A stretch of DNA of 64,000 nt from Caldifarciminota bacterium. GTDB taxonomy: Bacteria > Hydrothermota > UBA3072. The position numbers and the translations under genes were made by a program. Location of the stretch: the NCBI GenBank assembly GCA_016930175.1, contig JAFGHJ010000004.1:1-64000 (forward strand). Direction: 5' to 3'. The notes beneath the pieces are model-generated. The model saw only the letters and a list, made by a program, of their open reading frames with translations, was not told where the DNA came from and made no database searches. Below are positions 22,726 to 49,156 of this stretch, one piece after another (the first letter of the stretch is position 1; each line of letters begins with the position of its first letter).

Positions 22726-24888
22726 TTATCTAATAACTACGGCTTTGCTCTTAAAGATATTATCACCGATTTTTAATCGTACAAAATAGATACCCGGTTT
22801 GCTTTCCCATTCAAGAGAATGATATCCATTTGTTTGCATAGTATTCACAGGTGTAGCAATTTTTTGTCCCAGTATGTTAAATATATCCATTCTGACATCG
22901 CTATCGTTTTCGAGTATATAGTTTATTTTTATTCCTCCGGATAAAAATTGAATAGAAATTCCTTCTTCGCTAACTTTTTCCGTGCTTATCCCGGCTCCTT
23001 CTCCTGTATATTTAACGATGTAGAATCCCCTATCTGTATTTGCTACATATATAAGTGAATCGCGTAGAAAGAATCCCTCGGCTTGACCTTCCATATCATA
23101 GAACGCAATCTCAGATGGGTTTGTGGGGTTGGATATTGTAAGTATTCGTAATCCATTTGCTTCATTCGTTACAAAAACCAGGGAGTCGCGCGCAAAAATG
23201 TATGATGCCTCGAAATCCCTATTTTCATAACGTCCAATTTCATAAGGATCTGAAGGATTCGAAACGTTTATTACTCGTAGCCCATTTGTCATATCTGCCA
23301 GAAATGCAAGAGAATCCTGGACATATACATCTTCTACACCTTTTGAGGAAACATCTGTAATAGAACCGATTTCTGATATATTGATTGGATCTGATATGTT
23401 TAATATTCTTAATCCTGCGAAGTCGCATGCTAAAAATGCCAGTGAATCAGTAATATATATTCCTTGGATAATGTCTTGGATACTGCTTTCGATATTATAG
23501 TGGCTAATTTCAGTTGGTTCCGCAGGGTTTGATATGTTTATCATATAAAATACGCCATGAAAGTCACCTACAAATGCTATTGAATCAACCAGACATATCT
23601 TGAACCCAAGAGATGAAGTGCTACAGGCGCCTATTTCATAAGGATTGGTAGGATCTGATACATTTAATATTTTTAATCCGGTTGAGGGACCAACATGCCC
23701 AACGATATATGCTAGAGAATCACGTATGTATATATCTCGAATATTGCTTCCATAATAGTAATATCCAATTTGGTAGGGATCTGTGAGGTCAGATATATTT
23801 AATATTTTAACCCCATCCCTTGGGTCTGCTAAGTATGCCAGGGAATCTTTAACGAACAGGTTTACAACGAAACCTTCAGTGTCATAGAAGCTTAATTCAG
23901 AAGGATTCTCCGGATCCGATACATCTACTATCTCAAAACCTGATTTGTCTTTTGCCAGGAAGGCCAGCGAGTTGCAAACATGAATGTCACAGGAACTACT
24001 GTTGTATTCCGATATTTTTGATGGATTTGCCGGATCTGATATATTTAATATTGACATTTCATCTCCCGTGTTTAAAAAAGCAAGTGAATCATCTATGTAA
24101 ATGTTACTGCAGCTAGGATAATAATAAGGTAGCTCAGTTGGGTTTGTTGGATCTGAAATATTTATTATATGGAGATGGTCACCCGTTAAAAATGCTATAG
24201 AGTCCCTGACGAAAATATCTCTTGAAAATCCCCAGGTGTCATAGAATCCAATTTCGGAAGGGTTTGTGGGATCTGCTATATTTAAAACAAATAGGCATCC
24301 TTCGTCAGTTGCTACAAAGGAAAGTGAGTCTCGGACATATACCGAAATAACGTAATATCCCACGTCATGGAATCCAACTTCAGAGAGATTTGAAGGATCG
24401 GATATATCGATTATTCTTAGTCCGCCTCTACGACCAGCTACAAACATCAAAGAGTCGAGGACAAAAAGCTTTCCCGTGTTACCCCCGTTAGAGAGAGTCC
24501 CTATTAAGTAAGGGTTTGAGGGGTCTGATATACTTATTGTAGAGAAACCACTATCTCTAATTGATACATATGCTAAAGAGTCCTTTACGTAAATGTCTGT
24601 TAATTCATCAGAAAATTCAATATTACTCAGGTAAGATGGATTAGTAGGATTTGATACATCGAATATTTTCAAGCATTTTCCAGCACCTGCGAATACAAGA
24701 TTGTCTTTTGAAAAAACTGTATAGCATCGTCCCGTAAGCCATTTGCCCACAAGAGTACAGTCTAATGAATCTGCTCGAGTTTTTATTCTTGTATTAGAAT
24801 ATTTTATATTATTTGTAGGTTCGGCATGTAGTAAAATTGAACATAAGAAAATTAATAGAACAAAGATTTTTAATAATTTTTTACTCAT
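22726..24888 (-). CDS. secreted LVIVD-repeat protein with C-terminal sorting-like domain
   Basis: This 720-aa protein has a signal peptide (KLLKIFVLLIFLCSILLHAE) and about thirteen ~43-residue LVIVD-type repeats of the form DSLAFLA...GLRILNISDPTNPSEIGFYD, which fold as a beta-propeller-like array. The last ~70 residues (VRMDIFNILGQKIATPVN to PGIYFVRLKIG) are a Por-type C-terminal sorting domain with the GIYFVRL signature. It should be exported and displayed on the surface. A good Shine-Dalgarno sequence (AAGGAGG) precedes the ATG. It is likely cotranscribed with the hydrolase gene. Ligand unknown. Confidence 0.88.
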   Translation of the reverse strand: MSKKLLKIFVLLIFLCSILLHAEPTNNIKYSNTRIKTRADSLDCTLVGKWLTGRCYTVFSKDNLVFAGAGKCLKIFDVSNPTNPSYLSNIEFSDELTDIYVKDSLAYVSIRDSGFSTISISDPSNPYLIGTLSNGGNTGKLFVLDSLMFVAGRRGGLRIIDISDPSNLSEVGFHDVGYYVISVYVRDSLSFVATDEGCLFVLNIADPTNPSEIGFYDTWGFSRDIFVRDSIAFLTGDHLHIINISDPTNPTELPYYYPSCSNIYIDDSLAFLNTGDEMSILNISDPANPSKISEYNSSSCDIHVCNSLAFLAKDKSGFEIVDVSDPENPSELSFYDTEGFVVNLFVKDSLAYLADPRDGVKILNISDLTDPYQIGYYYYGSNIRDIYIRDSLAYIVGHVGPSTGLKILNVSDPTNPYEIGACSTSSLGFKICLVDSIAFVGDFHGVFYMINISNPAEPTEISHYNIESSIQDIIQGIYITDSLAFLACDFAGLRILNISDPINISEIGSITDVSSKGVEDVYVQDSLAFLADMTNGLRVINVSNPSDPYEIGRYENRDFEASYIFARDSLVFVTNEANGLRILTISNPTNPSEIAFYDMEGQAEGFFLRDSLIYVANTDRGFYIVKYTGEGAGISTEKVSEEGISIQFLSGGIKINYILENDSDVRMDIFNILGQKIATPVNTMQTNGYHSLEWESKPGIYFVRLKIGDNIFKSKAVVIR

Positions 24889-34611: not shown

Positions 34612-35393
34612 TTGTGTTAAAGAATATTTGTTTTGGCTATGAAGATGTAGAGGTTATTAAAAACTGCTCTATTTCTTTTGCTTCTGATGAAATCCATCTC
34701 CTTGTAGGTCCAAATGGAGCCGGGAAAACTACTCTTGCTATGATACTAAAAGGTCTTGTTAAACCGAGTCATGGTAGAGTTTTTTCTCCGGTCGGGAACA
34801 TTGATATATTTCGTAGAAAGATGGGATTTCTTTTTCAGTTTCCCGAGGATCTTTTTTTTAATGATACCGTATATGAAGAAATAGCTTATGGTGCAAAGAA
34901 ATTTGAAGTTGAAGATGTTGATAGAAAAATCAATAATATTATTGATTTTTTGGGGTTGGATCCGGAGATTCTAAATTTTTCTCCGTTTGATCTTTCTTAC
35001 GGTGAAAAGAGAATAGTGGCTTTTGCTTCTATACTTATATGGGACCCTTCCTATTTGATACTTGACGAACCTTTCTCAGGTTTAGACTGGCAATTCAGGA
35101 ATAGACTTGCGGAAGTTGTTGAGAGTTTAACAGGTAGGGTTGGAGTGGTAATAATTTCACAGGAACTCGATAATGTGATTTCTTTTGTGGATAGAGTCAG
35201 TTTGATGGTGGGAGGCGAATTGGTCTTTTCTTCCCCGATAGAAGAAGTGGATTGGGATGAAATATACGAAGCGGGTTGCGACATTCCTTCTGCTGTAAGA
35301 CTGGCAAATAAGCTGAAGAGAAATGGAATAAAACTCGATACGAATGTTTGCCCTTATACTCTTGAAAGGTTATTGAAAGCTCTAAAAAATTAA
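34608..35393 (+). CDS. ECF transporter ATP-binding protein (second)
   Basis: This 261-aa ABC ATPase has Walker A GPNGAGKTT, Q-loop FLFQFPEDLFF, signature LSYGEKR and Walker B YLILDEP with SGLDW. The FQFPE Q-loop is typical of the EcfA' partner. It overlaps the first ATPase gene by 4 nt. Together they would power vitamin or ion uptake with EcfT and an S component encoded elsewhere. It ends before a convergent response regulator gene, with a ~30-nt gap. Confidence 0.88.
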   Translation: MIVLKNICFGYEDVEVIKNCSISFASDEIHLLVGPNGAGKTTLAMILKGLVKPSHGRVFSPVGNIDIFRRKMGFLFQFPEDLFFNDTVYEEIAYGAKKFEVEDVDRKINNIIDFLGLDPEILNFSPFDLSYGEKRIVAFASILIWDPSYLILDEPFSGLDWQFRNRLAEVVESLTGRVGVVIISQELDNVISFVDRVSLMVGGELVFSSPIEEVDWDEIYEAGCDIPSAVRLANKLKRNGIKLDTNVCPYTLERLLKALKN

Positions 35394-35425: not shown

Positions 35426-36184
35426 TTATATCGCAACTTCGATAGCGTTAAGTAAAAAGCTCAAATCATAAGGTTTTTCGATATAATATTTAACACCAGC
35501 TTCCATCATTTTTTGTCTGTATTCTTCGTCTTTTACCGCTGTAAGTACAATTACGGGTATGTTTTGAGTATAGACTAAGTTTTTGAGATTTTTTAAAAAG
35601 GTAAAGCCTCCCCCTCCCGGAAGTAATAAATCAAGAATAATTAAAGCGGGCTTTTCCTCGCGGGCGAGACGCATACCCTGATCTACATCGTATGCGACGA
35701 AGGTTGTATAATTCGCTCTGTGTAAATCCAGGGACAGCTTTTTTACGAAATCGGTATCATCGTCGACAATTAATATTTTTCCGACGCTTCCGGCTTCTTC
35801 TTGGGCCTTATCCGGTTCTACTATATGTTCCTCAACACTTCTTAATAATTCCTGTGCATTGTAAGGTTTTTCTAAATACTCGATTGCGCCTGCTTCCAGC
35901 ACTTTTTTCTTCATTTCTGCATCATGTATGCCTGTAAGAACTATAATGGGTATGGATTGAGTCTCAGATAATCGGTTCAATCTCTCAAGAACGTTTAAAC
36001 CGCCGCCGCCGGGTATCATTAGATCAAGAATAATTAAATCCGGGATTTCTTTTCTGGCAAATTGAACTCCTTGGATCGCATCTCCGACGTTTAGGACATT
36101 ATAGTCGGACGAATGCAAATGTCTTATCATCAAAGCCGAAAGGTCATAGTCATCTTCGATTACTAATATTTTCTTTTTTTTCAA
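35426..36184 (-). CDS. tandem-receiver response regulator without output domain
   Basis: This 252-aa protein has two complete REC domains: residues 4-120 with phospho-acceptor D54 and EYLEKP, and 133-252 with D184 and YYIEKP. The two share near-identical ILDL(M/L)(I/L)PGGGG motifs, which points to internal duplication. No DNA-binding or enzymatic domain follows, so it would act by protein contact. It is the last gene of a five-gene operon otherwise made of exported proteins, 20 nt after the beta-barrel gene. No kinase is in the window. Confidence 0.88.
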   Translation of the reverse strand: MKKKKILVIEDDYDLSALMIRHLHSSDYNVLNVGDAIQGVQFARKEIPDLIILDLMIPGGGGLNVLERLNRLSETQSIPIIVLTGIHDAEMKKKVLEAGAIEYLEKPYNAQELLRSVEEHIVEPDKAQEEAGSVGKILIVDDDTDFVKKLSLDLHRANYTTFVAYDVDQGMRLAREEKPALIILDLLLPGGGGFTFLKNLKNLVYTQNIPVIVLTAVKDEEYRQKMMEAGVKYYIEKPYDLSFLLNAIEVAI

Positions 36185-36204
36185 AATTTCAAGTCATTGA
36201 GGAT

Positions 36205-37851
36205 TTACCAGCTGCTTGAAATGCTTCCTATTAAGCGCCACTCGTCGTAATCTTCTGTTTCCTCTTCATCATCGTAGAAATTCCTCTCTATATCGAAATT
36301 CATATTGGCGAAAGAACTCAAATATAATGAAGAGTTACAATATATGCCTTTTTTAGAGCTTTCTTCTCCTTCCGAAGATGTGATAAAACCGACGCCGTTT
36401 GTCCATCTTTCAAAAAAAGTATAATACGCCCCGACATCAAACGATAAGATATCTTCACTCATATCCGGATAATTCGTCTCCGAATAATCAACGGCTAGAG
36501 AAAGACTAAGAGGAATCATAAAGTTAATTTCATCGCTTACCGATATAGCTGTGCCGGAATAATTATTAGAGTTGTCCAGATCTGTATAATCCTGATAGGA
36601 GAAGAAAAGACTTATATAGTTGCTGATGTTGGAGAAAGCGAAATCATAACCGGTATTAACGGAATACATTTTACTGCTCCGCTCCAGCAGAAGAGAATCG
36701 TTTCTTTCGGTATAAGGGCTGTAGCTGAAATCTAAATAAGGTAAGTTGGCAAAGTTAAATCCGATTCCAAACTCATAAGCATTAAAAGCGGTCGTGGAAC
36801 CTTTTAGTCCGAGAATGTTATCTGTTTCCTTTTCAAGAGAACCATATAGAAAAAAACTGTTATTAAACAAGTTTTTCTTTATACCCGCTTCGTAAGCGAA
36901 GAGATCGCTTCTCAAGTAGGGATTTCCAAAAGATTCAAAGCCCGGTCCCACCATACCAAATGAACCGAAAATTTCCGTTTCATAAATATTAAGAGCGGAG
37001 TTGACAGTAAAGGCAAAATCAAAAGAACTGCTCATCCTCGGATGGAAAATATCGGTAAGAAAGGAAGGAATTTCTTCAAAATCCAGCTCGGGCATGCGTA
37101 TGTCTCTTGTTACTTCGGTGCCGACGAGCTCTGATTCTATGTAGAATCTGTTGTCTAAAAGTGAAAGTTTTAAGTCGATTCCCGCGATATAATTTTCCAT
37201 GGGTTTTGTAACTTCCACGCTGTCCGTATCGGTAACGGCCGGGATAAAGTATGGTGATACGGAACTTGAATCGTCTCCTGCATGTAGAAAAATAAAATGG
37301 AAGTGGGAGGTTTCTCTTCTGCCGACACCTACGTTAAAGGCGTATAAGTTTCTCTCGTAAGCATAGTCGGTATAAGTTGTATCGGACCAGTCTACGCTTC
37401 TCTGTAAATTACCCATAGTTCCTTCTAAATGGATGAATCCCGGGTTAAGTTCGACTACTCCCCCTGAAACAGGTACACTCGAAAGAGTATAAGGAGAGAA
37501 GTACGGATAACAGGTTCCAAATTCAACATTAGAGATAGACAGAACAAAACTCGGGACGTTGACCTTGTCTCTCAGCATCTTTTCCGGCTGTATGCTTATT
37601 CGGTATTTATTGAGAGCCTGACGATATTTTGATTCCAGTGAACTTAACTGAAAATCAAAAGTTATAGGCAAAGTGGCAATAGATATAGTCGGACTTAATG
37701 TGAACCGGACCTGAGAACTCGGTTCTATCAGAGAATCCCCTCCCTCTATGTTATCATACTCGCCGTATAAATTTGCGGAACCGGAGAAATCAACTATCCC
37801 GGCATAAGAAACAAACGCAAGAAATAAAATAAGTAATGCTACCTTTTTCAT
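36205..37851 (-). CDS. putative outer-membrane beta-barrel protein
   Basis: This 548-aa protein has a signal peptide (KKVALLILFLAFVSYAG) followed by alternating hydrophobic/polar strands rich in aromatic residues throughout, e.g. LYAFNVGVGRRETSHFHFIF and INFMIPLSLSLAVDYSETNY. It ends in a final strand LIGSISSSW, with a C-terminal aromatic as expected for BAM-inserted barrels. I do not recognise a named family. It lies between the papain-like protein and the tandem receiver gene in the same operon, with gaps of ~20 nt. Confidence 0.7.
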   Translation of the reverse strand: MKKVALLILFLAFVSYAGIVDFSGSANLYGEYDNIEGGDSLIEPSSQVRFTLSPTISIATLPITFDFQLSSLESKYRQALNKYRISIQPEKMLRDKVNVPSFVLSISNVEFGTCYPYFSPYTLSSVPVSGGVVELNPGFIHLEGTMGNLQRSVDWSDTTYTDYAYERNLYAFNVGVGRRETSHFHFIFLHAGDDSSSVSPYFIPAVTDTDSVEVTKPMENYIAGIDLKLSLLDNRFYIESELVGTEVTRDIRMPELDFEEIPSFLTDIFHPRMSSSFDFAFTVNSALNIYETEIFGSFGMVGPGFESFGNPYLRSDLFAYEAGIKKNLFNNSFFLYGSLEKETDNILGLKGSTTAFNAYEFGIGFNFANLPYLDFSYSPYTERNDSLLLERSSKMYSVNTGYDFAFSNISNYISLFFSYQDYTDLDNSNNYSGTAISVSDEINFMIPLSLSLAVDYSETNYPDMSEDILSFDVGAYYTFFERWTNGVGFITSSEGEESSKKGIYCNSSLYLSSFANMNFDIERNFYDDEEETEDYDEWRLIGSISSSW

Positions 37852-37869
37852 CTTTCAGCCTTCCTCTTA

Positions 37870-39519
37870 TTATTTCTTCTTCTCAATCGGGTCGACCGGC
37901 ATCTGCTTCTTGTCTAAAGGATCCGGAGGTATCTGCGTTTGTAGTTTATTTACCTTTATGGTTGCTCCATTCAATTTGTTCCAGTTATCCGGAGTAACTT
38001 TCTGCCACTCTTTTCCCGGAACGTTTAATGTTCTTGCCGGCATCTTTGTTATTTTACCATCCGCAACCTGAGTGATTTGAAGATTACAGCTAACAGGACC
38101 TTTTTCACCTATAAGAAGAAGAGCATCGCGGCCTTCTGCCAATCGGAGCCTGACCGGTGAAGAACTCGGAGCTTGAAGGTTTGTCACTTTAAATATCCTT
38201 GACGTTTCGGAGCCTGGGACCGTTTGATGCAGTTCCACTTCGAATTTGGCAGTTCCCCTTTTGCTGCTTAATTTTAATTCCTGATTGTTGGTGGAGAGTT
38301 TTGTTACCTCAAAATTATCTCTGCCGCTTGAACCACCGGGCGCAGAAAGTCTTATTATATTATCCGTTCCCGCCATTTCGAATTTGTATTTCTTGCCTGT
38401 CGCAGCGATTTCAAAGTTGAGATTTTTTCCTTCCGAGCCGATTGCGAAATAAATCTCGGGAGGGTTCGCCGGCTTTCTTACTGTTTTTCTTACACTTCTA
38501 GCCGGGGCGGCAAAAGTCATCGGCATTCTTATTAAGTTTTTCATTTTAAGTGACGGGTTATCTTCAATATCGGATAATTTATTATGCGAGTTTGCGCTTG
38601 TCTTGTAGAATTTATGACCTTCGTCGTCCGAAATCTGAGAAATATTAGCGCCGGTGAGAAAAACGTGGTTCATCGCGTCGGTAATCCCTCCGAGCTGGAG
38701 AGGATTACGGGAAGAGGCTTTTACAATGGACATGGGTGTGGCGAAGATAAAGCCATCTGGGGAGCCCCAGGTAGTAGAAGCGTCCCACTGATATTTCCAA
38801 TTGCCGTTGCTCTTTGTTACCTCGATATAATTATCGTGGTCATCGTAGAAGAGAGAATCGGGCGGATACCATTTATTTGAGTCATATATGTAAATGTATC
38901 TTTTTGAGCCTGATTCCTCCACTTTGTAAGGTATCAATGTGTGTCCGACAAGACTTGTGTTCTGAACTATTGTTAGTACAGGCAGGTCTCCCATGGAAAG
39001 ATAGTATTCCACCTGTTCGTAAGCATAATTCCCGTCTTTTATGTGGGTGCCTGTTATATTCTCAGCCATCCACATTATACCCGCGTGACTCCATTCATGA
39101 CACTGCATAACCGTTATGACAGTACACAATTTTGCTGATGCAGGGCCATCGAAATCGCCCGAGTAAGTGTATACGGGCTTGCAGAACCCCATGTGTCCTT
39201 CTTCTTTGTAGATTATATTGGCGAGCAAACTCATGCCGAAACAATTACCCGCCGCAACCGCGAACGCGGCGTTGTAAGCATGGTAGAACGCGTAATCCAG
39301 AGGGCATAAAACTTTAGCTTGATTTGAATCCGGACAGATTCCTATAAAACTCCTTACGTATATTTCCCATGGAAGGATAGTATTATCTCCTGCATCTTTA
39401 AAATAAGTTGCGTTTTCAAAACCCCAGCAATGCTGTTCTACGAATTCGTCCCCGGCATATAAAGGAATTGCCAGGAAAACAACAATCAACAGAGTTAAGA
39501 TTAATGTTATTTTTCTCAT
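37870..39519 (-). CDS. secreted protein with papain-like Cys-His-Asp arrangement
   Basis: This 549-aa protein has a signal peptide (ITLILTLLIVVFLAIPLYAG). In the N-terminal half, GNCFGMS (C93), VGHTLIPY (H193) and YIYDSNKW (D213/N215) occur in the order and sequence style of C39/papain-like or transglutaminase-fold proteins. A region of beta-strands (340-500) follows, then a Pro/Lys-rich tail. It may be a secreted cysteine peptidase or a peptide-binding relative. It sits in the five-gene exported-protein operon, 12 nt from the FecR/FN3 gene. Function is inferred. Confidence 0.6.
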   Translation of the reverse strand: MRKITLILTLLIVVFLAIPLYAGDEFVEQHCWGFENATYFKDAGDNTILPWEIYVRSFIGICPDSNQAKVLCPLDYAFYHAYNAAFAVAAGNCFGMSLLANIIYKEEGHMGFCKPVYTYSGDFDGPASAKLCTVITVMQCHEWSHAGIMWMAENITGTHIKDGNYAYEQVEYYLSMGDLPVLTIVQNTSLVGHTLIPYKVEESGSKRYIYIYDSNKWYPPDSLFYDDHDNYIEVTKSNGNWKYQWDASTTWGSPDGFIFATPMSIVKASSRNPLQLGGITDAMNHVFLTGANISQISDDEGHKFYKTSANSHNKLSDIEDNPSLKMKNLIRMPMTFAAPARSVRKTVRKPANPPEIYFAIGSEGKNLNFEIAATGKKYKFEMAGTDNIIRLSAPGGSSGRDNFEVTKLSTNNQELKLSSKRGTAKFEVELHQTVPGSETSRIFKVTNLQAPSSSPVRLRLAEGRDALLLIGEKGPVSCNLQITQVADGKITKMPARTLNVPGKEWQKVTPDNWNKLNGATIKVNKLQTQIPPDPLDKKQMPVDPIEKKK

Positions 39520-39531
39520 TTCATCCTCCCT

Positions 39532-42500
39532 TTAAGGCGTTGCCTTACCATTTTTGGCAGTTGAAACGAGTGAACGGTTACCATTTTTGGCAAAGTACTG
39601 CACTTTGTAGTAATAATCTTTATTGCCAATGACCTTATCATCGAGGAACTTACTTTCTTTTAGAATAGGACTAATCTGCCGGAAACCAGTATTTGGATCG
39701 GAACTTCGAAATACAACAAAGCCGGCATATTTTTTGTCATAATCGGGCTTCCATTCGATTAATAGAGCACACAACTTCGAATGCTTAGTTACTTTAAGAT
39801 CTGTCGGTGTAGGCGGAGGTCCAATATTATATGTGTATGTCTCTATGGGAACGGAAGGTTTCCCGATGTTTCCGCCGTAATCTGCGGCTTTCACTCTGTA
39901 GTAGTATACCTTCTTTTCTTCAACGGTAGTATCTATAAATGAGAAGACGGAATCAGCCGCCCATATATTGGTTGCAGGTATATCGTCACAGTCTATAGCG
40001 GTAGGGAATATAAGAGAATCGCTCACTCTCTTGTAGGGCCCGGCCTCTTTTTCCGCTCTCTCAACTATGAAGCCGAACAAATCCTGTACCGGGGAAGAAA
40101 CCCACTCGACTTTTATCGCCCTGTCTCTCGCCTTTAGACCAGCAAGAACTGGAGGAGCGGGCGGCGTCTCTTCTCTCAACTTCTGGCAAACGGTTCTGGA
40201 AGTGTCGCTTAAATTTTGACTTTTATCGTAAGCTTTTATCGTATATCTGTAACAGATAGGCGAACCAGGCGGTACGGTATAGTCTTTGTACTTAAGACTA
40301 TCGGGATGATCCTTATTTCCTACAAGATGCATCGGATAAGGCACAAGTTCCCACTTTGTACATATTTTTTCTTTTCGTTCATTGTAAGTAAATTCGACAC
40401 ATACGGAATCGTAACCGCAAACCCCTCTGTATATATTGTAACCCGCAAGGTCTGACGGAACGGGATTTGGCTTGTCCCAATCCAGTGCGATATGGTCGGC
40501 GTGGCTTTCCGCTTTTAGATTCCGTGGTGGTTCCGGAGGTGTCGTATCCGGCAGGTTATTTCCGGCTGAAGGAGAAAGACCGCTTATATTTCCCGCGCCG
40601 TCGATACTCCTGACTCTGTACCAGTAGGTTTTTTCGCCGTATGCCGAGAAAAGTGATGGGTCAGTATCCTTAAAGAACGGAAAAGCTCCGAATGTATCGG
40701 GCAGCATAGATTTGACCACAGTGCTGTCGGCGAGAGAATCTGCCGAATTAAAACGGTAAACCTTGTAGCCCTGTATTCCCGAGAGTTCGACGTGTCCTAA
40801 TTCATCGTGGGTGACCTGATACCATATAGGCTGTAAGCCGTCCGGATAGGCTTCTACGGTAATTCCATACGGAACAGCAGGCGGTGTTTCATCCTCTGGG
40901 GTAGCAGGAACATTTGAACTGAACATACCCGGTCTGCCAAGAGCGTCATACGCCCTCACTTTATATTGATAAGTTGTACCGTTATAAGGACCGTAGATGG
41001 AATCGGGCGCTACAACCTCATGCAAAGCAGGGTAGCCCGCTTCGTCCCAGCGCATGAAATCTATAAAGCAGTTTTTCTCTGAAATTTTATTTCCTTCTAA
41101 ATCGAGAGTACATTTTTCCACTATGTCGGCTCCGTTTATCTTAACAGGCGATGCAGAAGCCGAACTTCTGTAAACGTCGTAGCCCGAAGCGGTTCCCATC
41201 TCATTCCACCTCACCATAACTTTATTATCTCCCTCAATCGTACTGACTCCGGAAGGAGCAGGTAAAGGAAGAACTTTTCCGGCTACTACTATAGCGGTAT
41301 CTATTGCTTCGATTTTCTCCGTCCCGATACCGGTGCCGGTTTTTCTAGACGAGGCAGGAGTGATTGCATACATATACTTTTTACCCGGGACGACGTCATC
41401 ATCGACATAAGCCTGACCTATAACAACACCGACCTTCCAGTACTTGCCCGCTAGAGCATGTAAATCCTCGTAAGCCTTGCTTGTATCGGACAGGGTTGAA
41501 ATAGCGCAGGGGCTGAGTTTGGCGAGTACAGTTGGAACTGCAAACATCTCTGAAGCTGGTTCCTTGGGAGCTATTAATGAAGAGCCCTTAGTAGAGCTTC
41601 CTTTTATTATGTCTCTCTTAGTTCTAGGTTTTGGAGGTCCGTTAATAACATTCGTAATAGCCTGCCACTCTTCGGAACCTTCAGGTATAACTGCCTTAAT
41701 GTCATTACAGTTACTCATCATAGCTATCGGTTTGGAGTTAATCGGAGTCGTGGGAATTCCCGGGGAAGGAATTTCCTTCCTGTAAAGGTTAAAGGCTTTA
41801 ACTCCTTTCATTTGCGGCCATTTTAGCAATATAAAAGTTTTTCGCCCGAGGTTTTCGCTGCTTATTGCATAGAGAAAGCCGGTTTCGGTAGGAGCGAAAA
41901 GACCTTCGAACATCGAAGTACCTTTAACTTTCATAAGTTCATTTAGTTTGCTTTCATACTCTTTTTCTAAACCCAATTTGCCGGCAACTGCCTTTACCTG
42001 GGAGGCAAGAAGCATTAAATCCTTTCCGGCGGCGCCATCTCCATGCTCGCCATCGTCATAAGCTTGTTTTAGTTTACCTAGGACAAAATCGGCATCACCT
42101 TTTGTCCATTTATACCATTGTTTCACCTGGTCCTTTTTGAATTTTCCGAACTTTGCAGCCTTGCCCTTTTCCAGAGATGCCGTCTCTCCTTCTCCCAACT
42201 TTTTCTCTTCTCCGCTTTTCTTATCTTTGAAGTTTAGGTTTCCTCCAAACATCTTACAATCCACTTTTTCTGCTATAAAAGATTGTTCGAATTCCGTACC
42301 CGTAATACCGGAGATGGAAACAGGAGTAACAACTTCCAGAGATTCGCCTTTCACGAGCTTTTTGACTTTTGCCCAGATTCTTCCAAAGGAAAGAAAGATA
42401 GATCTTTTTTTCTCATCGCTTGTAGTCGCAATCCTGGTATTGGCGTCCAAATACAGCATGGAACTGTCGGCATAAAGAATCTCGGCTTTAGAACTATCTC

Positions 42501-42630
42501 CAGCTATAACTGTATCGTTGTCCATTAATTCCATACCTATTGTAGGAATAATAGTAGTATCTGCTCTTTTTACTACCACATCGTTAGTGTAAACATTTAA
42601 TACTGTTCCCAATAATATTAATATTAACAT
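39532..42630 (-). CDS. secreted FecR-domain protein with FN3 repeats
   Basis: This 1032-aa exported protein has a short signal peptide and a FecR-like beta domain at ~15-150 (AEILYADSSMLYLDANTRIA to VTPVSISGITGTEF). At least five fibronectin type III modules follow between ~475 and the C-terminus, recognisable by the DTTPPEPPRNLKA and YYYRVKAADYGGN strands. FecR domains of this kind in exported proteins are thought to bind glycan or protein, not to act as sigma regulators. AAGGAGG precedes the ATG. It is the second gene of the operon. Ligand unknown. Confidence 0.85.
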   Translation of the reverse strand: MLILILLGTVLNVYTNDVVVKRADTTIIPTIGMELMDNDTVIAGDSSKAEILYADSSMLYLDANTRIATTSDEKKRSIFLSFGRIWAKVKKLVKGESLEVVTPVSISGITGTEFEQSFIAEKVDCKMFGGNLNFKDKKSGEEKKLGEGETASLEKGKAAKFGKFKKDQVKQWYKWTKGDADFVLGKLKQAYDDGEHGDGAAGKDLMLLASQVKAVAGKLGLEKEYESKLNELMKVKGTSMFEGLFAPTETGFLYAISSENLGRKTFILLKWPQMKGVKAFNLYRKEIPSPGIPTTPINSKPIAMMSNCNDIKAVIPEGSEEWQAITNVINGPPKPRTKRDIIKGSSTKGSSLIAPKEPASEMFAVPTVLAKLSPCAISTLSDTSKAYEDLHALAGKYWKVGVVIGQAYVDDDVVPGKKYMYAITPASSRKTGTGIGTEKIEAIDTAIVVAGKVLPLPAPSGVSTIEGDNKVMVRWNEMGTASGYDVYRSSASASPVKINGADIVEKCTLDLEGNKISEKNCFIDFMRWDEAGYPALHEVVAPDSIYGPYNGTTYQYKVRAYDALGRPGMFSSNVPATPEDETPPAVPYGITVEAYPDGLQPIWYQVTHDELGHVELSGIQGYKVYRFNSADSLADSTVVKSMLPDTFGAFPFFKDTDPSLFSAYGEKTYWYRVRSIDGAGNISGLSPSAGNNLPDTTPPEPPRNLKAESHADHIALDWDKPNPVPSDLAGYNIYRGVCGYDSVCVEFTYNERKEKICTKWELVPYPMHLVGNKDHPDSLKYKDYTVPPGSPICYRYTIKAYDKSQNLSDTSRTVCQKLREETPPAPPVLAGLKARDRAIKVEWVSSPVQDLFGFIVERAEKEAGPYKRVSDSLIFPTAIDCDDIPATNIWAADSVFSFIDTTVEEKKVYYYRVKAADYGGNIGKPSVPIETYTYNIGPPPTPTDLKVTKHSKLCALLIEWKPDYDKKYAGFVVFRSSDPNTGFRQISPILKESKFLDDKVIGNKDYYYKVQYFAKNGNRSLVSTAKNGKATP

Positions 42631-42640
42631 CGATACCTCC

Positions 42641-45600
42641 TTATTCTACGTAGAAGCCGCGGACTGAGTTCATTCCCGCAGTAATTTCTATTTCACCGCA
42701 AATGACCCATAGTACGCATCCTCTAAGACCAAAAGTGCCTTCGAAACCCATCGGGTGTCCAAAGTACATTTCTAACTCTCCCCAGGCTGATGCGGAAACA
42801 AGGCCCCAGAGTATTTCTCCGTATATGTAAACACCGACTACACCAACTACATAAAAGCCGGCGTTTTCAGTCGCACTGCCGTCACTATTATTGTAGCTTC
42901 CGCCCACAAAGGCTCCGACACCAGCATATATCTCGACACCGCCTTCTATTATTCCGGCGACTCCCACAGATATTTCTACATCTCCAAAAATGTAAACGCC
43001 TGTGACAGGGTCGGCTATATTAGCCATATTAATACCAAACCGTCGGCTTCCGCTGCTTCCCTCTCTAATAACCCATACTTGATCCTTAGGAGCGTTGAGA
43101 CCGATAAATAGACCTCCGGAAAGACCGGCTCCTAAGGTTATGCTGCATATATCAACTGCCAATCTTCCCTGTATATAATTTGCGGTTGGGCTAAAGAACC
43201 AGTTAGCCTGCCCATCCGCAGAGATATCCACACCTATGGCGCTCAAATCAAAAGCTCCTTTTATTTCCCCTTCTACGCTTCCGGCAGCGCGGTCTGTTTT
43301 AAGGAATACGCTTCCTGTCATTTCAAGATCAGTGCCAAAGACATAAAGATACATCATGCCGTCAGCGGCAAAGCTTGATATAGTCGGGGTAATAGCCATC
43401 TTCACCTCTATCCCCACTCCGGCTTTAGGAACGAGTAAGTCAAAACCGCCTCCGACAGTCGATTCGAGCCTGCCTCCGATTGCGATTCGCTCGAGTTCGT
43501 CCCCTTTGATGACCGCACATCCCCAGATTTCACCTAAACTGGCTAATTCTACATGTAAGAGAGACACATCCAGTACGCTGGTCTCTAAAACACAGATTTT
43601 TATATACAAACTATCAAGTTCTATTTCGGCATTAACTGGAGCTGAATGACCACTAGTTGAAAAGAAGTCAAAGTCGACTTCCCCTGTACCTATAAATCCG
43701 TTCTGGTCAGTCGCATCATAACCAATCTTATCAAAATCCATATCCGCAGTACCGGAGCCCCAGTTTCTGAACAGAGCGAATGCCGCCGGATCTATTTTAA
43801 CGAGACGTCCGTAGAAAGGAACGCCGTGTTCAGTATGTTTTGCATCGTGTATGGTAATAAAATTGTCCGGTTCTCCGAAGAAATTAAAGTGAATGCCGCA
43901 TCGAACCACAAGCTCTCCCGGTTTTGACGCAACATATGGTGAGAGTGCAGCGGAATCCAGTGTAATCGGGAATCCATCGAATTTCTGATGAGCCGCGTTG
44001 TGGTTGAAATAAAATTCTCCCAGATTCCCGTCGGCTAACATTTCTCCCCAGAGTATGTTGAATCCTTTGCTGAAATGTACCGGTTCGTGAATATCGGCAT
44101 TTGTGTAGAGAATTTCTCCTATCCTAACACTTATAACTCCTCTTTCTGAAGTTAATCCAACTCCCCAGTATTCGAGAGTAAGTGTATCGTCGGGGAAGAA
44201 AGCGTTTCCACCGGCGAAACTGGCGGTAGAAGTAACTCCGACTTCTCTGAATGGAGGTTTTATGTTTGAAGGATAGGGAATTTGAAATTGTCCTCTTAAA
44301 TCGGTATTAAAAGAGGAATTACCAACGAACCAGAACTTCATGAATTTTAAAGATGTACTATCACTTTCATCGTGAATGAATGTCGTATTGAAAGAGCTGG
44401 TAGCCAAATATCCTGGTTTCCCTGGTTTCCCGATATGAACGTTCATATCGGGAGTTTCTACATCCGAAGATAAAAATCCTCTCATTCCCTGCATTTCCAG
44501 ATTGAACCAGCCCTGGTTTTTCCGTGGTTTTTCAGTTCCATGGGTTTGTTTTGGCGTCCCGCAGCTTGCCATTTCCCCAAATTTTAAAGGATTGTTTGCG
44601 TCTCCTGAATAAACAGTCAAAATGTCATTTTCTCTATTAAGACACGGCACGACTAAACCTATCAAGGTGTCCACTGCTACATATCTGAAGGTGTCTCCCT
44701 TTACAACCGTATGATAAGCATAGGGTTTTGAGGGAAACTTAACGAATGTATATGAGGCATTTAATCCGAACCCGCCCCACTTCATTTCGTCTGTTATGTC
44801 GACAGCAGCGTGTAAATCCAGAAGTGAATCCACAAGAAGCGAGTCGTAAGCCGCCCTAACAGGTTGTCCTGCGGGATCAAGGACTCCATTACTGTCGGAA
44901 GGAAGTACTATATATCCGTTTGCAAATTTTCCTTTCTTTACTTTGCACTTCTCAATCTCTAGCTGTCCATTTGTCAAGTTAATTTCGAACCCCATTGGAA
45001 TTAAAGAATGAAATTTCCACGGGTTGGCAAGCTGTAATGTAGCGTTAAAACCGGTTGTAGAAAGTACGCCGTTATTGAAGAAGTATTTACCGTAAAGGTA
45101 ACCCGTATTACAGGTATCCATGCCTGGCTGTTCTACAGTTTCGCCTCTATTCATTTTTATTTCTACCTTAGCGGGAGTAATCGTTCTGCTTAAATCAACC
45201 AGAACTTCTTTCTTGGACATGATAATAATTCCGGTTTCCCCTATCCTGTAAGGACCTCTATCTGCTACTGTGAGTTCTTTGTGAATATCGGGAAGAGGTG
45301 AAAGCCTGGAAATGAAAGGTCCAAGTTCGGCTGGTTCGCAGCCTGTAGTATCATAAAGACATCTAAGTCCGACTCCAACATATCCGCTTGCTGAATCCGG
45401 CCACATGTGTATATCGTGCACTAAAACGTGGTAACCTTCGACCGGAACAAGTAGGGGAGAAGAAAAACTTTCCTGGATTTCTCCGGAGGTAACATATGCA
45501 GTGTCTTCACCGGCTGTCCAGTTCACCTGCAAGTTCTGGAAATCGACATCGAATTTAATCTCTATATAAACATACATCGGGCCGCCAAAGTGTGGCGGAG

Positions 45601-46522
45601 GTCCTTTCTTTAAGAAATAAGATTCACCGCTTCCGGAGAGCGAATCAACCGAAGACGAAGTATACGATATGTTCTTTATCACAAAATCACCTATTTTTAT
45701 ATAGGAAGGTGTTAAGAAAGGTTTAATTCCTTCAATAATTCCGGGTTTTAGTTCCCATATTTCACTCATACCCCTGTTCGTGCCGAGGGGAAAACCCCCA
45801 TCATAAAAAGACTGAACCTGCCAGGCGTAGTTTTTATCGGGGTCTAAATCTTTCGCTTTCAGAGGATACGGAAAACTTGTCCTGGTAATTCTGTCTTCTT
45901 CATACCAGGGAGGATTTGACCTCATTGCTTCTTCTTTTGTCTGCCCTTTGTAGACCTCGACTATTTTGAATTTGTAAAAAACTCTTTCGCCTGCCGGCAA
46001 CGGAGCGGGTTTAGTCCAGGTAAAAACAGGTCGTTTAACTTCTGTGCCTTTGCCTGCCTTTGGAGAAATTAATCGCGGAGGGCCAGCAGGGCGAACCTCT
46101 ATGTGTATACATTGTTTTGCAAGTTCTTGGCCTGTGGACGCATCCATTAAAGACAAACAAACATCATAACTGCCTGCCGGAACAGAGCCTGTTCTAAGTA
46201 TGAGCTCTTTGTCTTCCTCTGCGTACCATTCATCTCTTACGTCTCTTATATCTCTTGAGGTTATTCGTTTCTTTCCCGGAGGGGATTCAAATTCATTTGA
46301 ATTAGCTCTAAATAGCGGTCCTTTTCTGGCTTCGTCAATTTCCCCGTGGAAATAGACCATACGAGGTTCACGCGTGTTATTTGTTACATCGACTTTCCAG
46401 AGGTCTTCTACCCTTAATTGATTTGGCGGTGGTGGATAAATTCGTAACGTAAACTGGGCTCGGGCTGGGAGGCTTAAGAGAACAAGAAACAAAATAAAAA
46501 GCACAACACTCCGACACTTCAT
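42641..46522 (-). CDS. very large exported protein of unknown function
   Basis: This 1293-aa protein has a signal peptide (VVLFILFLVLLSLPARAQ). The first ~280 residues hold two Ig/FN3-like domains, including an FN3-like module (PVFTWTKPAP to YAWQVQSFYDGG) of a type common in Bacteroidota surface proteins. A long all-beta region follows. The C-terminal third is rich in Gly and Val with repeated VGVYIYGEI-like strands that could be a beta-helix or barrel. It is the first gene of the five-gene operon and has AAGGAGG and a consensus promoter. No named family is recognised. Confidence 0.75.
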   Translation of the reverse strand: MKCRSVVLFILFLVLLSLPARAQFTLRIYPPPPNQLRVEDLWKVDVTNNTREPRMVYFHGEIDEARKGPLFRANSNEFESPPGKKRITSRDIRDVRDEWYAEEDKELILRTGSVPAGSYDVCLSLMDASTGQELAKQCIHIEVRPAGPPRLISPKAGKGTEVKRPVFTWTKPAPLPAGERVFYKFKIVEVYKGQTKEEAMRSNPPWYEEDRITRTSFPYPLKAKDLDPDKNYAWQVQSFYDGGFPLGTNRGMSEIWELKPGIIEGIKPFLTPSYIKIGDFVIKNISYTSSSVDSLSGSGESYFLKKGPPPHFGGPMYVYIEIKFDVDFQNLQVNWTAGEDTAYVTSGEIQESFSSPLLVPVEGYHVLVHDIHMWPDSASGYVGVGLRCLYDTTGCEPAELGPFISRLSPLPDIHKELTVADRGPYRIGETGIIIMSKKEVLVDLSRTITPAKVEIKMNRGETVEQPGMDTCNTGYLYGKYFFNNGVLSTTGFNATLQLANPWKFHSLIPMGFEINLTNGQLEIEKCKVKKGKFANGYIVLPSDSNGVLDPAGQPVRAAYDSLLVDSLLDLHAAVDITDEMKWGGFGLNASYTFVKFPSKPYAYHTVVKGDTFRYVAVDTLIGLVVPCLNRENDILTVYSGDANNPLKFGEMASCGTPKQTHGTEKPRKNQGWFNLEMQGMRGFLSSDVETPDMNVHIGKPGKPGYLATSSFNTTFIHDESDSTSLKFMKFWFVGNSSFNTDLRGQFQIPYPSNIKPPFREVGVTSTASFAGGNAFFPDDTLTLEYWGVGLTSERGVISVRIGEILYTNADIHEPVHFSKGFNILWGEMLADGNLGEFYFNHNAAHQKFDGFPITLDSAALSPYVASKPGELVVRCGIHFNFFGEPDNFITIHDAKHTEHGVPFYGRLVKIDPAAFALFRNWGSGTADMDFDKIGYDATDQNGFIGTGEVDFDFFSTSGHSAPVNAEIELDSLYIKICVLETSVLDVSLLHVELASLGEIWGCAVIKGDELERIAIGGRLESTVGGGFDLLVPKAGVGIEVKMAITPTISSFAADGMMYLYVFGTDLEMTGSVFLKTDRAAGSVEGEIKGAFDLSAIGVDISADGQANWFFSPTANYIQGRLAVDICSITLGAGLSGGLFIGLNAPKDQVWVIREGSSGSRRFGINMANIADPVTGVYIFGDVEISVGVAGIIEGGVEIYAGVGAFVGGSYNNSDGSATENAGFYVVGVVGVYIYGEILWGLVSASAWGELEMYFGHPMGFEGTFGLRGCVLWVICGEIEITAGMNSVRGFYVE

Positions 46523-46604: not shown

Positions 46605-46633
46605 ATACTACCCATTTTTATACCTTTTGTCAA
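46605..46633 (-). promoter_or_regulatory. promoter of the exported-protein operon
   Basis: On the minus strand, TTGACA (46628-46633) and TAGTAT (46605-46610) are 17 nt apart. The leader is ~75 nt and ends with AAGGAGGG before the ATG at 46522. Confidence 0.75.
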
Positions 46634-46787: not shown

Positions 46788-49067
46788 TTATTCAAATAGT
46801 ACACATTTTTTGCAATCTGAATCTTTTCCTGCTTTGAGATTCAAAAAGTAAATACCCGAAGGTAAGGAAGGTTTTATTTCTAAGGTATGTTCTCCGGCAT
46901 TCTGGCTTTTATTAGAAAGGAATTCTTCTACACATCGTCCGCTTATATCGAACATAGATAGAGTAACAGGAATACTTTCGGATATGGTATATTTTACTAC
47001 TAAAGACTTCGAAAAAACAGAAGAAGATATTTTTAACCCTTTGAAGGAAGGTATTTGGACTTCAATCCCTGCTGGTTCCCAACAGTCCTCGGGCATCATA
47101 GTCAGATAAATTCCGCTTTCTATACCATAATCATTTAAAGCGGTTATTGCATAATAGTAATCAACACCTTCTAAAACAAATGAATCAATATAACTCGATT
47201 CAAGAGGGCCTATGCTATCTAGAAGAACCCAGTCACCGATTGCGCTATCTCCTGCAGGCCAGTAATCTGTTGCGCCTATAGCTCTGTATATTTTAAATCC
47301 TGCAAGATCGGAAGGCTGGTACCCCGGTTCGTATTCCCAGCTAAGATGGATTTTATTCGTTCCAGAATCGATTCTAAAAACCGAAGGAGGAGGAGAAGAA
47401 GCGGGAATATTATAATTCGTATTGAAGTTACGCTGTGCCGCCATACCGTTCGCGAAAAGAGAATCCCTACCTGTTGATATCACATAATCTGTTGCAATTT
47501 CGTTTAATCCGCCCCCCAGATAAACCTGGTCTCCGTATAATCTAGCTACAGGGTCTCTTTTCTCGTATTCTTCTCGAATGTCGGCTGAATCCATACCGGC
47601 GAGCCATTCGTAATTACGGGCATTATTATCAGCCCCCATATCGCTGAGAACGTAGGTTGTTTTTCTGCTCACTGAACCAGCTACAACCGCATAAACGAAT
47701 CTTAAAGTGTCTCCGTATTCCATATCATAAGGTCCTACAGAAAATTTAGGATTGGCAGAGAAGGGATAATAATCCCAGTCTCTGGGGAAAATCTTTCCAC
47801 GGTACAAGCTCAACTCTCCCATTCTATCCTGGGGTTGGTCGTAATAAGTAGGTGCGCCTGTGGATGTTGTGTCGTATATGTCATACATGACACTCATATC
47901 GTAAACATTCAAGCATTCCGATATTGTGGTATCATCATAGCCATGTATTCCCATCCTCATACACCTGTATGATTTTCGGTGGTCAGCAGTATCAACAAGG
48001 TCTTCCATATCATTTAAAATACCAGTAAGATCTTCTATTGTGCTGTGCATGCTTGGTTGGGCAGGGTCGTTACTTGCGGCGACATCCACAATCGGATAAC
48101 TTTGCGGAACATCGTTGTTTTTTGGCGCAAATAAAATCGCGTGTCCGGTCCAGCAGCATCCATCCTCGAGGTCCAGGTCTCCTCCCCAATCTTTCTCGCA
48201 CCTGTCACCGTAAGAATCATGAGTAAAATCTGATTTTCTTGCGAGAGCAACATAACTCATCCGAAGAGAATCATCATCCTGGGGATAGCTAAGTCTCGTA
48301 TCATGGTCTACGGTTACTCCAGCCCAGCTACCAAAGGGATAAAGCCCTGAGTTTGGCATTGCCTGGTAGTGTTTCATAATAATCACAGATTCCAAATTTT
48401 GTCCCGGAAGCTCGATATCGTCATCTATATCAGTGTTCCCGGTATTTACAAATGTCAAGTCCCATACCACATAGTCATCATGGCCTTTTTGGCTCCAGGC
48501 AAGATTTCTCTGGTAAACGTCCATACCGTTCGAAAGCCTGTAGTGGCATTCAACCATCATATCTGCAGTTCCCCATATTTTCTCAGGAGCTATCTCGTCT
48601 CCCGGTGAACCAAATGGTGGTTCGCAATGCTTTCCGTTAACTATTATTTCGGGTGGGGGATATCTAAAGTATCTATGAATAGTATATCCCTCTCCATCAG
48701 GAATCGTAAATTGATAAGGATTATTACTAAGAGTTGAGGAATCGGCACAATGTCCTGTGACATGATATGGCCAGACATTGTCGAGCGTATCCGTCCAGTT
48801 TTGGCTTCCCACATAAGTGCCGGCGTTTCTAAGAATTCCTCCTGGCCAGCTTGTCACCTGATTTGTATCCCACTCCACGGTATAGGTGCCCCTGCAGTAG
48901 GTGGCATAACCAAGGCCATACAGATTGCTACTACTTTCTATCCCATCTTCGAAAATTTTTGCCTGCAGTTTTCCTACATCAATCCTTCTCATTTCTTGAG
49001 CATATGCAACACTAATGATACACAAAGTAATGAGCAACAACACCAGCTTACTGATTTTACTTTTCAT
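46788..49067 (-). CDS. secreted protein with FN3-like and C-terminal sorting-like domains
   Basis: This 759-aa protein has a signal peptide (KLVLLLITLCIISVAYAQ). A large N-terminal beta-rich region holds WDLTFVNTGNTDIDDDIELP. An FN3-like module lies near 570-660 (IHLSWEYEPG, LAGFKIYRAIG). The last ~75 residues (VTLSMFDISGRCVEEF to LPSGIYFLNLKAG) form a Por-type sorting domain. I chose the ATG at 49067 because AAAGGAGGT lies just upstream; the frame extends 9 codons further without support. It is monocistronic, with a strong promoter. The substrate is unknown. Confidence 0.82.
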   Translation of the reverse strand: MKSKISKLVLLLITLCIISVAYAQEMRRIDVGKLQAKIFEDGIESSSNLYGLGYATYCRGTYTVEWDTNQVTSWPGGILRNAGTYVGSQNWTDTLDNVWPYHVTGHCADSSTLSNNPYQFTIPDGEGYTIHRYFRYPPPEIIVNGKHCEPPFGSPGDEIAPEKIWGTADMMVECHYRLSNGMDVYQRNLAWSQKGHDDYVVWDLTFVNTGNTDIDDDIELPGQNLESVIIMKHYQAMPNSGLYPFGSWAGVTVDHDTRLSYPQDDDSLRMSYVALARKSDFTHDSYGDRCEKDWGGDLDLEDGCCWTGHAILFAPKNNDVPQSYPIVDVAASNDPAQPSMHSTIEDLTGILNDMEDLVDTADHRKSYRCMRMGIHGYDDTTISECLNVYDMSVMYDIYDTTSTGAPTYYDQPQDRMGELSLYRGKIFPRDWDYYPFSANPKFSVGPYDMEYGDTLRFVYAVVAGSVSRKTTYVLSDMGADNNARNYEWLAGMDSADIREEYEKRDPVARLYGDQVYLGGGLNEIATDYVISTGRDSLFANGMAAQRNFNTNYNIPASSPPPSVFRIDSGTNKIHLSWEYEPGYQPSDLAGFKIYRAIGATDYWPAGDSAIGDWVLLDSIGPLESSYIDSFVLEGVDYYYAITALNDYGIESGIYLTMMPEDCWEPAGIEVQIPSFKGLKISSSVFSKSLVVKYTISESIPVTLSMFDISGRCVEEFLSNKSQNAGEHTLEIKPSLPSGIYFLNLKAGKDSDCKKCVLFE

Positions 49068-49156
49068 TATTACCTCCTTTGTAATATAGAACAAGTTATA
49101 TTTACGTTTTCTCTTTTGGCGACCATTCTAAATCAGAGTACTTTGTTTATTAAAGC

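Follow-up and report, generated by a model that had tools for sequence, protein, structure and literature searches.

Five closely spaced genes form a conserved set

The question raised by this locus is whether five closely spaced genes from an uncultured bacterium make up one system and, if so, of which kind. The window, by which the whole analyzed stretch of 64,000 nucleotides is meant, belongs to the phylum Ca. Stahlbacteria. The reading that we prefer, and to which we give an even chance, is that genes 1-4 encode a modular outer-membrane surface-display cassette, in which an N-terminal module of gene 1 (N-module) and a barrel would form a base, and the remainder of gene 1 a head with its own Cys-protease-like partner.

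The five genes are located on the minus strand between 46522 and 35426 and are separated by intergenic gaps of 10, 12, 18 and 20 nt in order of transcription. The following features were recognized:

46605..46633, minus strand: promoter-like site 5' of gene 1, TTGACA-17-TAGTAT, 10/12; shuffled DNA has such sites about as often
42641..46522, minus strand: gene 1, exported protein of 1293 aa with a signal peptide, the N-module (residues ~23-260) and an all-beta head (~261-1293)
45743..46456, minus strand: N-module of gene 1, residues 23-260, common to proteins with wholly different heads beside the same barrel family
42641..45742, minus strand: head of gene 1, residues ~261-1293, with a conserved C-terminal GFY-x-E; found only with the papain-like family
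39532..42630, minus strand: gene 2, exported FecR and FN3 protein of 1032 aa
42283..42516, minus strand: FecR domain of gene 2, residues 39-116; the fusion is specific to the genus
37870..39519, minus strand: gene 3, exported papain-like protein of 549 aa with C93, H193 and D213 and a C-terminal beta domain
36205..37851, minus strand: gene 4, predicted outer-membrane barrel of 548 aa with a C-terminal Trp
35426..36184, minus strand: gene 5, cytoplasmic tandem receiver of 252 aa with a TTG start, D54 and D185, and no output domain

The N-termini of genes 1-4 resemble signal peptides, as judged by eye. A gap of 265 nt lies upstream of gene 1, and the 3' flank of gene 5 is occupied by convergent transporter genes that end at 35393. 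All five genes were scanned against Pfam and NCBIfam and matches above the cut-off were counted. For genes 1, 3 and 4 no family exceeded the cut-off in either collection. Gene 2 matched FecR (PF04773, 8.4e-11) and fn3 (1.9e-6), with at least one recognizable FN3 domain, and gene 5 contained two receiver domains (5.3e-48, in two stretches) and no output domain. The initial annotation, made from the DNA letters alone, had described five genes with gaps of 10-20 nt at this place, a FecR/FN3 protein and a protein of two receivers without output; the ORF coordinates and the Pfam matches bear this out.

In another species of the same genus (genome G001) the same five genes are found in the same order with about 60-73% identity, and the set is therefore not due to chance. 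The wider survey covered 147 genomes of the phylum, mostly fragmented and incomplete MAGs, and E-values and counts rest on profiles built in this analysis.

The head of gene 1 and the papain-like protein share one distribution

The head of gene 1 was identified in only 8 of the 147 genomes (G000, which is the source genome, G001, G060-G063, G066 and G069); these 8 are also the only ones in which the papain-like gene 3 was found. A complete locus in G061 (L089) has the order papain-like protein, gene 1, FN3 protein and barrel. The same order is present in G066 (L079), where the barrel is truncated by the contig end, and G060, G062, G063 and G069 contain portions of the gene set on broken contigs. 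The cassettes of these two further families (L089, L079) encode an FN3 protein in which FecR was not recognized, and a receiver gene was not seen alongside. The heads are homologous across their whole length, with about 33-38% identity.

The proposal that the four exported genes belong together thus stood up, as they co-occur in re-ordered form in two other families and head and gene 3 have the identical 8/147 distribution. A chance operon was rejected for genes 1-4 on their co-occurrence in G001 and the two other families. That unrelated exported proteins are merely packed together is, on the same grounds, very improbable; it is disfavored for genes 1-4 and possible for gene 5.

In gene 3, C93, H193 and D213 are invariant in 6 sequences with 22-65% identity and follow the Cys-His-Asp order of clan CA, in agreement with the catalytic residues suggested earlier; the same holds for CFGM, which surrounds the Cys, and for YD at the position of the Asp. 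The AlphaFold model of gene 3 has a mean pLDDT of 61, and in its mostly poor catalytic half the Cys is placed at the start of a helix and the His at the start of a strand, as would be expected of such a peptidase. A fold search with this model, weak in the catalytic half, gave no PDB match with E <= 0.001, and a PDB sequence-profile search with the papain-like alignment gave no significant match. The conserved residues point to a papain-like, Cys-protease-like enzyme that would serve this head, with both its activity and its substrate being predictions. Since no other head is accompanied by gene 3, this head is its likely client, rather than proteins in general. This bears on the possibility that the operon serves nutrient acquisition, the head and the FN3 protein binding a polymer, gene 3 digesting protein outside the cell and the barrel importing the products. 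The papain-like residues of gene 3 would suit such a role, as would the C25 peptidase and laminin-G domains on other heads (see below), but the operon contains no TonB-dependent receptor, SusD-like or transporter gene, and the restriction of gene 3 to a single head speaks for a client rather than for digestion. We regard nutrient acquisition as improbable.

For the head itself, the AlphaFold model was unusable (mean pLDDT 38), and a PDB sequence-profile search with the head alignment gave no significant match.

The N-module carries many different heads

The N-module, i.e. the first 260 residues of gene 1, was matched in 58 of the 147 genomes, strongly in 37. It is probably a pair of beta-sandwich-like domains, the second of which weakly resembles Ig_Rha78A_N and DUF928; a PDB sequence-profile search with the N-module alignment gave no significant match. 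The sequence that follows the N-module is wholly different between proteins. Recognized head domains are:

Peptidase_C25: loci L013, L059 and L067
RTX repeats, SdrD_B and Laminin_G: locus L014
PKD: locus L097
GEVED: locus L063
InlB-type repeats: locus L072

Other N-module proteins, of up to 3138 residues, have unnamed stretches in place of recognized head domains. The N-module protein of L014 (2160-10427) is 2755 aa long, combines RTX calcium-binding repeats with SdrD_B and laminin-G domains, and is encoded immediately 5' of its own barrel. In L067 (11589-12971 and 15250-16650) and L059 (5719-7230), genes for PKD-tailed proteins of ~450-500 aa come after those for N-module proteins with C25 or other heads; by analogy with the FN3 and papain-like proteins of the window, they may be partners of those heads. 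Large N-module proteins at L091 and L166 are accompanied by an FN3 and a TPR protein instead of a papain-like one (the TPR of L166 was recognized by eye only), and L165, from a Neomarinimicrobiota genome, encodes an N-module protein of 2209 aa, an FN3 protein and a barrel. At the other end of the size range, almost headless N-module proteins of ~330-360 aa are also paired with a barrel (L019, L020). Several N-module proteins have no barrel alongside. One of them is the second N-module protein of the source genome (G000:C24:75854-76582; L016 8807-12013), which has 1068 aa and a Cys-rich, charged middle part.

The N-module is linked to the gene-4 barrel

The family of gene 4 was found by profile search in 31 of the 147 genomes, with a strong match in 30. 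A strong N-module is also present in 29 of these 30 (Fisher p about 3e-22, treating related genomes as independent). Where a barrel and a strong N-module share a contig, 23 of 24 barrels lie on the same strand within about 12.5 kb, the lone exception being the second barrel of G131. For another 14 barrel matches the contig carries no strong N-module, and many of these are on short contigs or are truncated at a contig end. Since the paralogue on contig C24 has no barrel and genome G105 has a barrel without a recognized N-module, the pairing is strong but not absolute. As far as the alignments go, gene 1 belongs with the barrel through its N-terminal 260 residues alone, the rest being an exchangeable head, a division that the initial annotation had missed.

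The assignment of gene 4 as an outer-membrane beta-barrel is based on the strand pattern and the C-terminal aromatic residue, and the family is accordingly called barrel-like. In alignments its members have a signal peptide, amphipathic strands and, for the most part, a C-terminal W, F or Y. Gene 4 has 24 amphipathic segments compared to 17.4 in shuffles (z 2.4), and homologues gave weak matches to outer-membrane protein profiles, the best being OMP_b-brl with an E-value of 0.0012. A PDB sequence-profile search with the barrel alignment gave no significant match. For the 14 predicted strands at the C-terminus of gene 1, 14 amphipathic segments were counted compared to 9.5 in shuffles (z 2.3). 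These strands might form a second barrel; the soluble domains at the C-termini of other N-module proteins speak against a general requirement for one.

The linkage also allows for a secretion pair, in which the barrel would export gene 1 and the N-module would be the export signal, as in two-partner secretion with unrelated proteins. Indeed, the N-module is the sole part common to all proteins encoded beside the barrel, very different heads are tolerated, and gene 1 has no T9SS tail though the genome encodes SprA. Against this, no POTRA/ShlB or TPS match was obtained for genes 1 and 4 (Pfam, NCBIfam) or for 19 barrel homologues (Pfam), near-headless N-module proteins have a barrel as well, and the related barrels beside cyclases in a sister branch (see below) fit docking or signalling better than export. 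A secretion pair is thus quite unlikely.

Heads are combined with different N-module and barrel lineages

In the N-module tree the sequences from the window and G001 are nearest to those of G002 and G110, which carry C25 peptidase heads, with a weakly supported join (81/32). The N-modules of the remaining carriers of the head and the papain-like protein form a separate group (100/100), and a single clade for the N-modules of the two cassette lineages was rejected (AU p 1.5e-6). The barrel tree agrees in placing the window nearest to G002 and rejects a single clade more weakly (AU p 0.026). The trees had already been viewed when these clade tests were formulated, and one alignment method was used. 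Since the heads are homologous over their full length and the N-modules and barrels fall into split clades, the head, FN3 and papain-like proteins have been combined with different N-module/barrel lineages. On this phylogenetic evidence, head, FN3 and papain-like protein are shown to assort separately from N-module and barrel.

The FecR domain is related to a CHASE2-linked FecR, and a sister branch resembles a sensor

The fusion of FecR to the FN3 protein was seen only in this genus. In the FecR tree the gene-2 domain is sister (96/93) to a free FecR of the same two genomes, where a CHASE2-cyclase gene adjoins it; in the source genome this pair lies on contig C27 (L017). Because of this grouping, the FecR domain of gene 2 was probably copied from the CHASE2-linked FecR. 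The domain had been proposed as a binding module of a surface complex; given the genus-only fusion and this kinship, it is not a constant part of such a complex.

The barrel family with an extra N-terminal part was matched in 170 of 245 Neomarinimicrobiota genomes (the phylum of L060), many of the matches being weak or partial. There, an operon encodes an N-module protein, a FecR protein, a barrel and a CHASE2-cyclase (L146, L150, L151, L152, L153 and L156-L159); among these loci Pfam confirmed the cyclase domain for L146 alone, the others being assigned by their match to the CHASE2-cyclase query. A receiver protein comes next in L150, L156, L157 and L159, with the REC-PglZ architecture of PorX shown for L150, and L158 has a similar protein downstream. 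Smaller N-module/FecR/CHASE2 sets occur in Stahlbacteria (L019, L098, L100). This sister signalling branch, which had escaped the initial annotation, looks like the FecR/CHASE2-cyclase type of system. In Neomarinimicrobiota the operon may encode a sensor with a link to PorX, the T9SS regulator; a literature search for PorX together with CHASE2, which most subscription papers lay outside, found no paper with both. The barrel tree, in which some branches are long, separates the sensor barrels (100/99) from the display barrels of the two phyla, the L165 barrel (L145) being among the latter.

The window operon could itself be a trans-envelope sensor, in which the barrel together with the N-module and FecR would perceive an external ligand and relay the signal through the periplasm, the cytoplasmic output being given by the tandem receiver or by the CHASE2 cyclase encoded at another locus. 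Apart from the sister operon and the related sets in Stahlbacteria, this is favored by the FecR domain of gene 2 and the phospho-receiver encoded by gene 5, and an analogue is known from S. meliloti, where the NsrA barrel is required for signalling to the CHASE2 cyclases CyaK, CyaD1 and CyaD2 (PMC7529298, PMC13001267). However, genes for a cyclase, a kinase and a sigma factor are all missing from the operon, FecR and the receiver are absent from the other families' cassettes, the display barrels form a clade of their own, and a sensor has no need for heads that are 1000-3000 residues long and contain protease, RTX or PKD portions. We consider a sensor unlikely.

The tandem receiver was found with the cassette in one genus only

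Both receivers of gene 5 are intact in the ED/DD acidic pair, the phospho-acceptors D54 and D185, LT and EKP, and they are 45% identical to each other. A PglZ domain was not found by Pfam. A tandem receiver adjoining the cassette was found only in this genus and therefore looks like an add-on. Of the co-occurrence in related genomes on which the initial annotation had staked the five-gene unit, the part concerning genes 1-4 was confirmed, whereas gene 5 did not follow outside the genus.

A model for the surface-display cassette

In the surface-display cassette, the gene-4 barrel would be seated in the outer membrane as the base, with the N-module of gene 1 docked onto it, and the ~1030 remaining residues of gene 1 would be the outward-facing functional part. 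The FN3 protein would be a binding or scaffold partner dedicated to the head, and the papain-like enzyme would process, mature or cross-link this particular head. FecR domains work in the periplasm in signalling in other systems. The addition of a FecR domain, related to the FecR/CHASE2-cyclase pair of the cell itself, to the FN3 protein would be a gain specific to the genus, and the tandem receiver would have been added at the end of the operon, most simply to serve in the cytoplasm as a phospho-switch or phosphate sink that is produced along with the cassette. The G105 barrel without an N-module, the N-module proteins without a barrel and the absence of a T9SS tail from gene 1 speak against the model.

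A broader proposal, which we consider rather unlikely, is that this is a general platform of candidate phyla: one N-module and its dedicated barrel would carry interchangeable heads of up to ~3000 residues, each with its own servicing proteins, the barrel would share its ancestry with the FecR-CHASE2-PorX sensor, and the barrel or the N-module would act as a surface address without a T9SS tag. 

The design of the cassette itself recurs in at least two candidate phyla. If the cassette model is correct, it would represent an unnamed modular route by which uncultured phyla present large surface proteins, head modules would move between bases along with their own protease-like partner, and the display barrel would be tied by descent to a FecR-CHASE2 sensor adjoining the T9SS regulator PorX. 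It would also allow many large proteins of Stahlbacteria and Neomarinimicrobiota that are listed as 'hypothetical exported' to be annotated at once.

Comparison with known systems

CHASE2 adenylate cyclases are clustered with FecR outer-membrane proteins and TPR proteins in Campylobacterota (PMC9239204). The window operon resembles these clusters and the NsrA system in that FecR and an outer-membrane barrel are part of one unit, and its sister branch has FecR and CHASE2-cyclase genes. It differs in that a FecR protein (gene 2) but no CHASE2-cyclase is found among the five genes, and in the additional exchangeable head, FN3, papain-like and tandem receiver parts. The Burkholderia BiofilmReg operon, which controls biofilm, encodes a response regulator, a LysM-FecR protein and a CHASE2 histidine kinase (PMC5192318). 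As in the window, an exported FecR-domain protein and a response regulator share an operon; however, the Burkholderia operon encodes a regulator with DNA-binding output and also a kinase, and barrel, head and papain-like protein are lacking. A FecIRA system was rejected, as the operon gave no match to a sigma factor or a TonB-dependent receptor.

Two-partner secretion (TpsA/TpsB) shares with the window operon a large exported protein, a conserved N-terminal part and an adjoining barrel. It was rejected as a family because POTRA and TPS domains are missing; the barrel is not of the POTRA/ShlB type, and the N-module is instead a predicted beta-sandwich-like domain pair. Similarities to T9SS cargo and PorX are the C25 (gingipain-like) heads, the very large exported proteins, PorX beside the sister branch and SprA in the genome. 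T9SS cargo was rejected since genes 1-4 contain no Por_Secre_tail or TIGR04183, gene 1 thus lacking the C-terminal sorting domain, and a PorX-like regulator because gene 5 consists of two receivers only, without PglZ. Among the named systems compared, none accounts for the five-gene cassette, and no name for it appears in the literature searched, as had been surmised at the outset. On Stahlbacteria/WOR-3 with type IX secretion and a peptidase, that search, which most subscription papers lay outside, returned two metagenome surveys only.

SprA is encoded in the source genome (contig C30) and in 13 other genomes tested, so that T9SS export of other surface proteins is likely. In the window, T9SS sorting tails are present on two exported proteins, encoded by the upstream neighbor of the operon (46788-49094) and by a gene at 22726-24888; the latter protein also contains LVIVD repeats.
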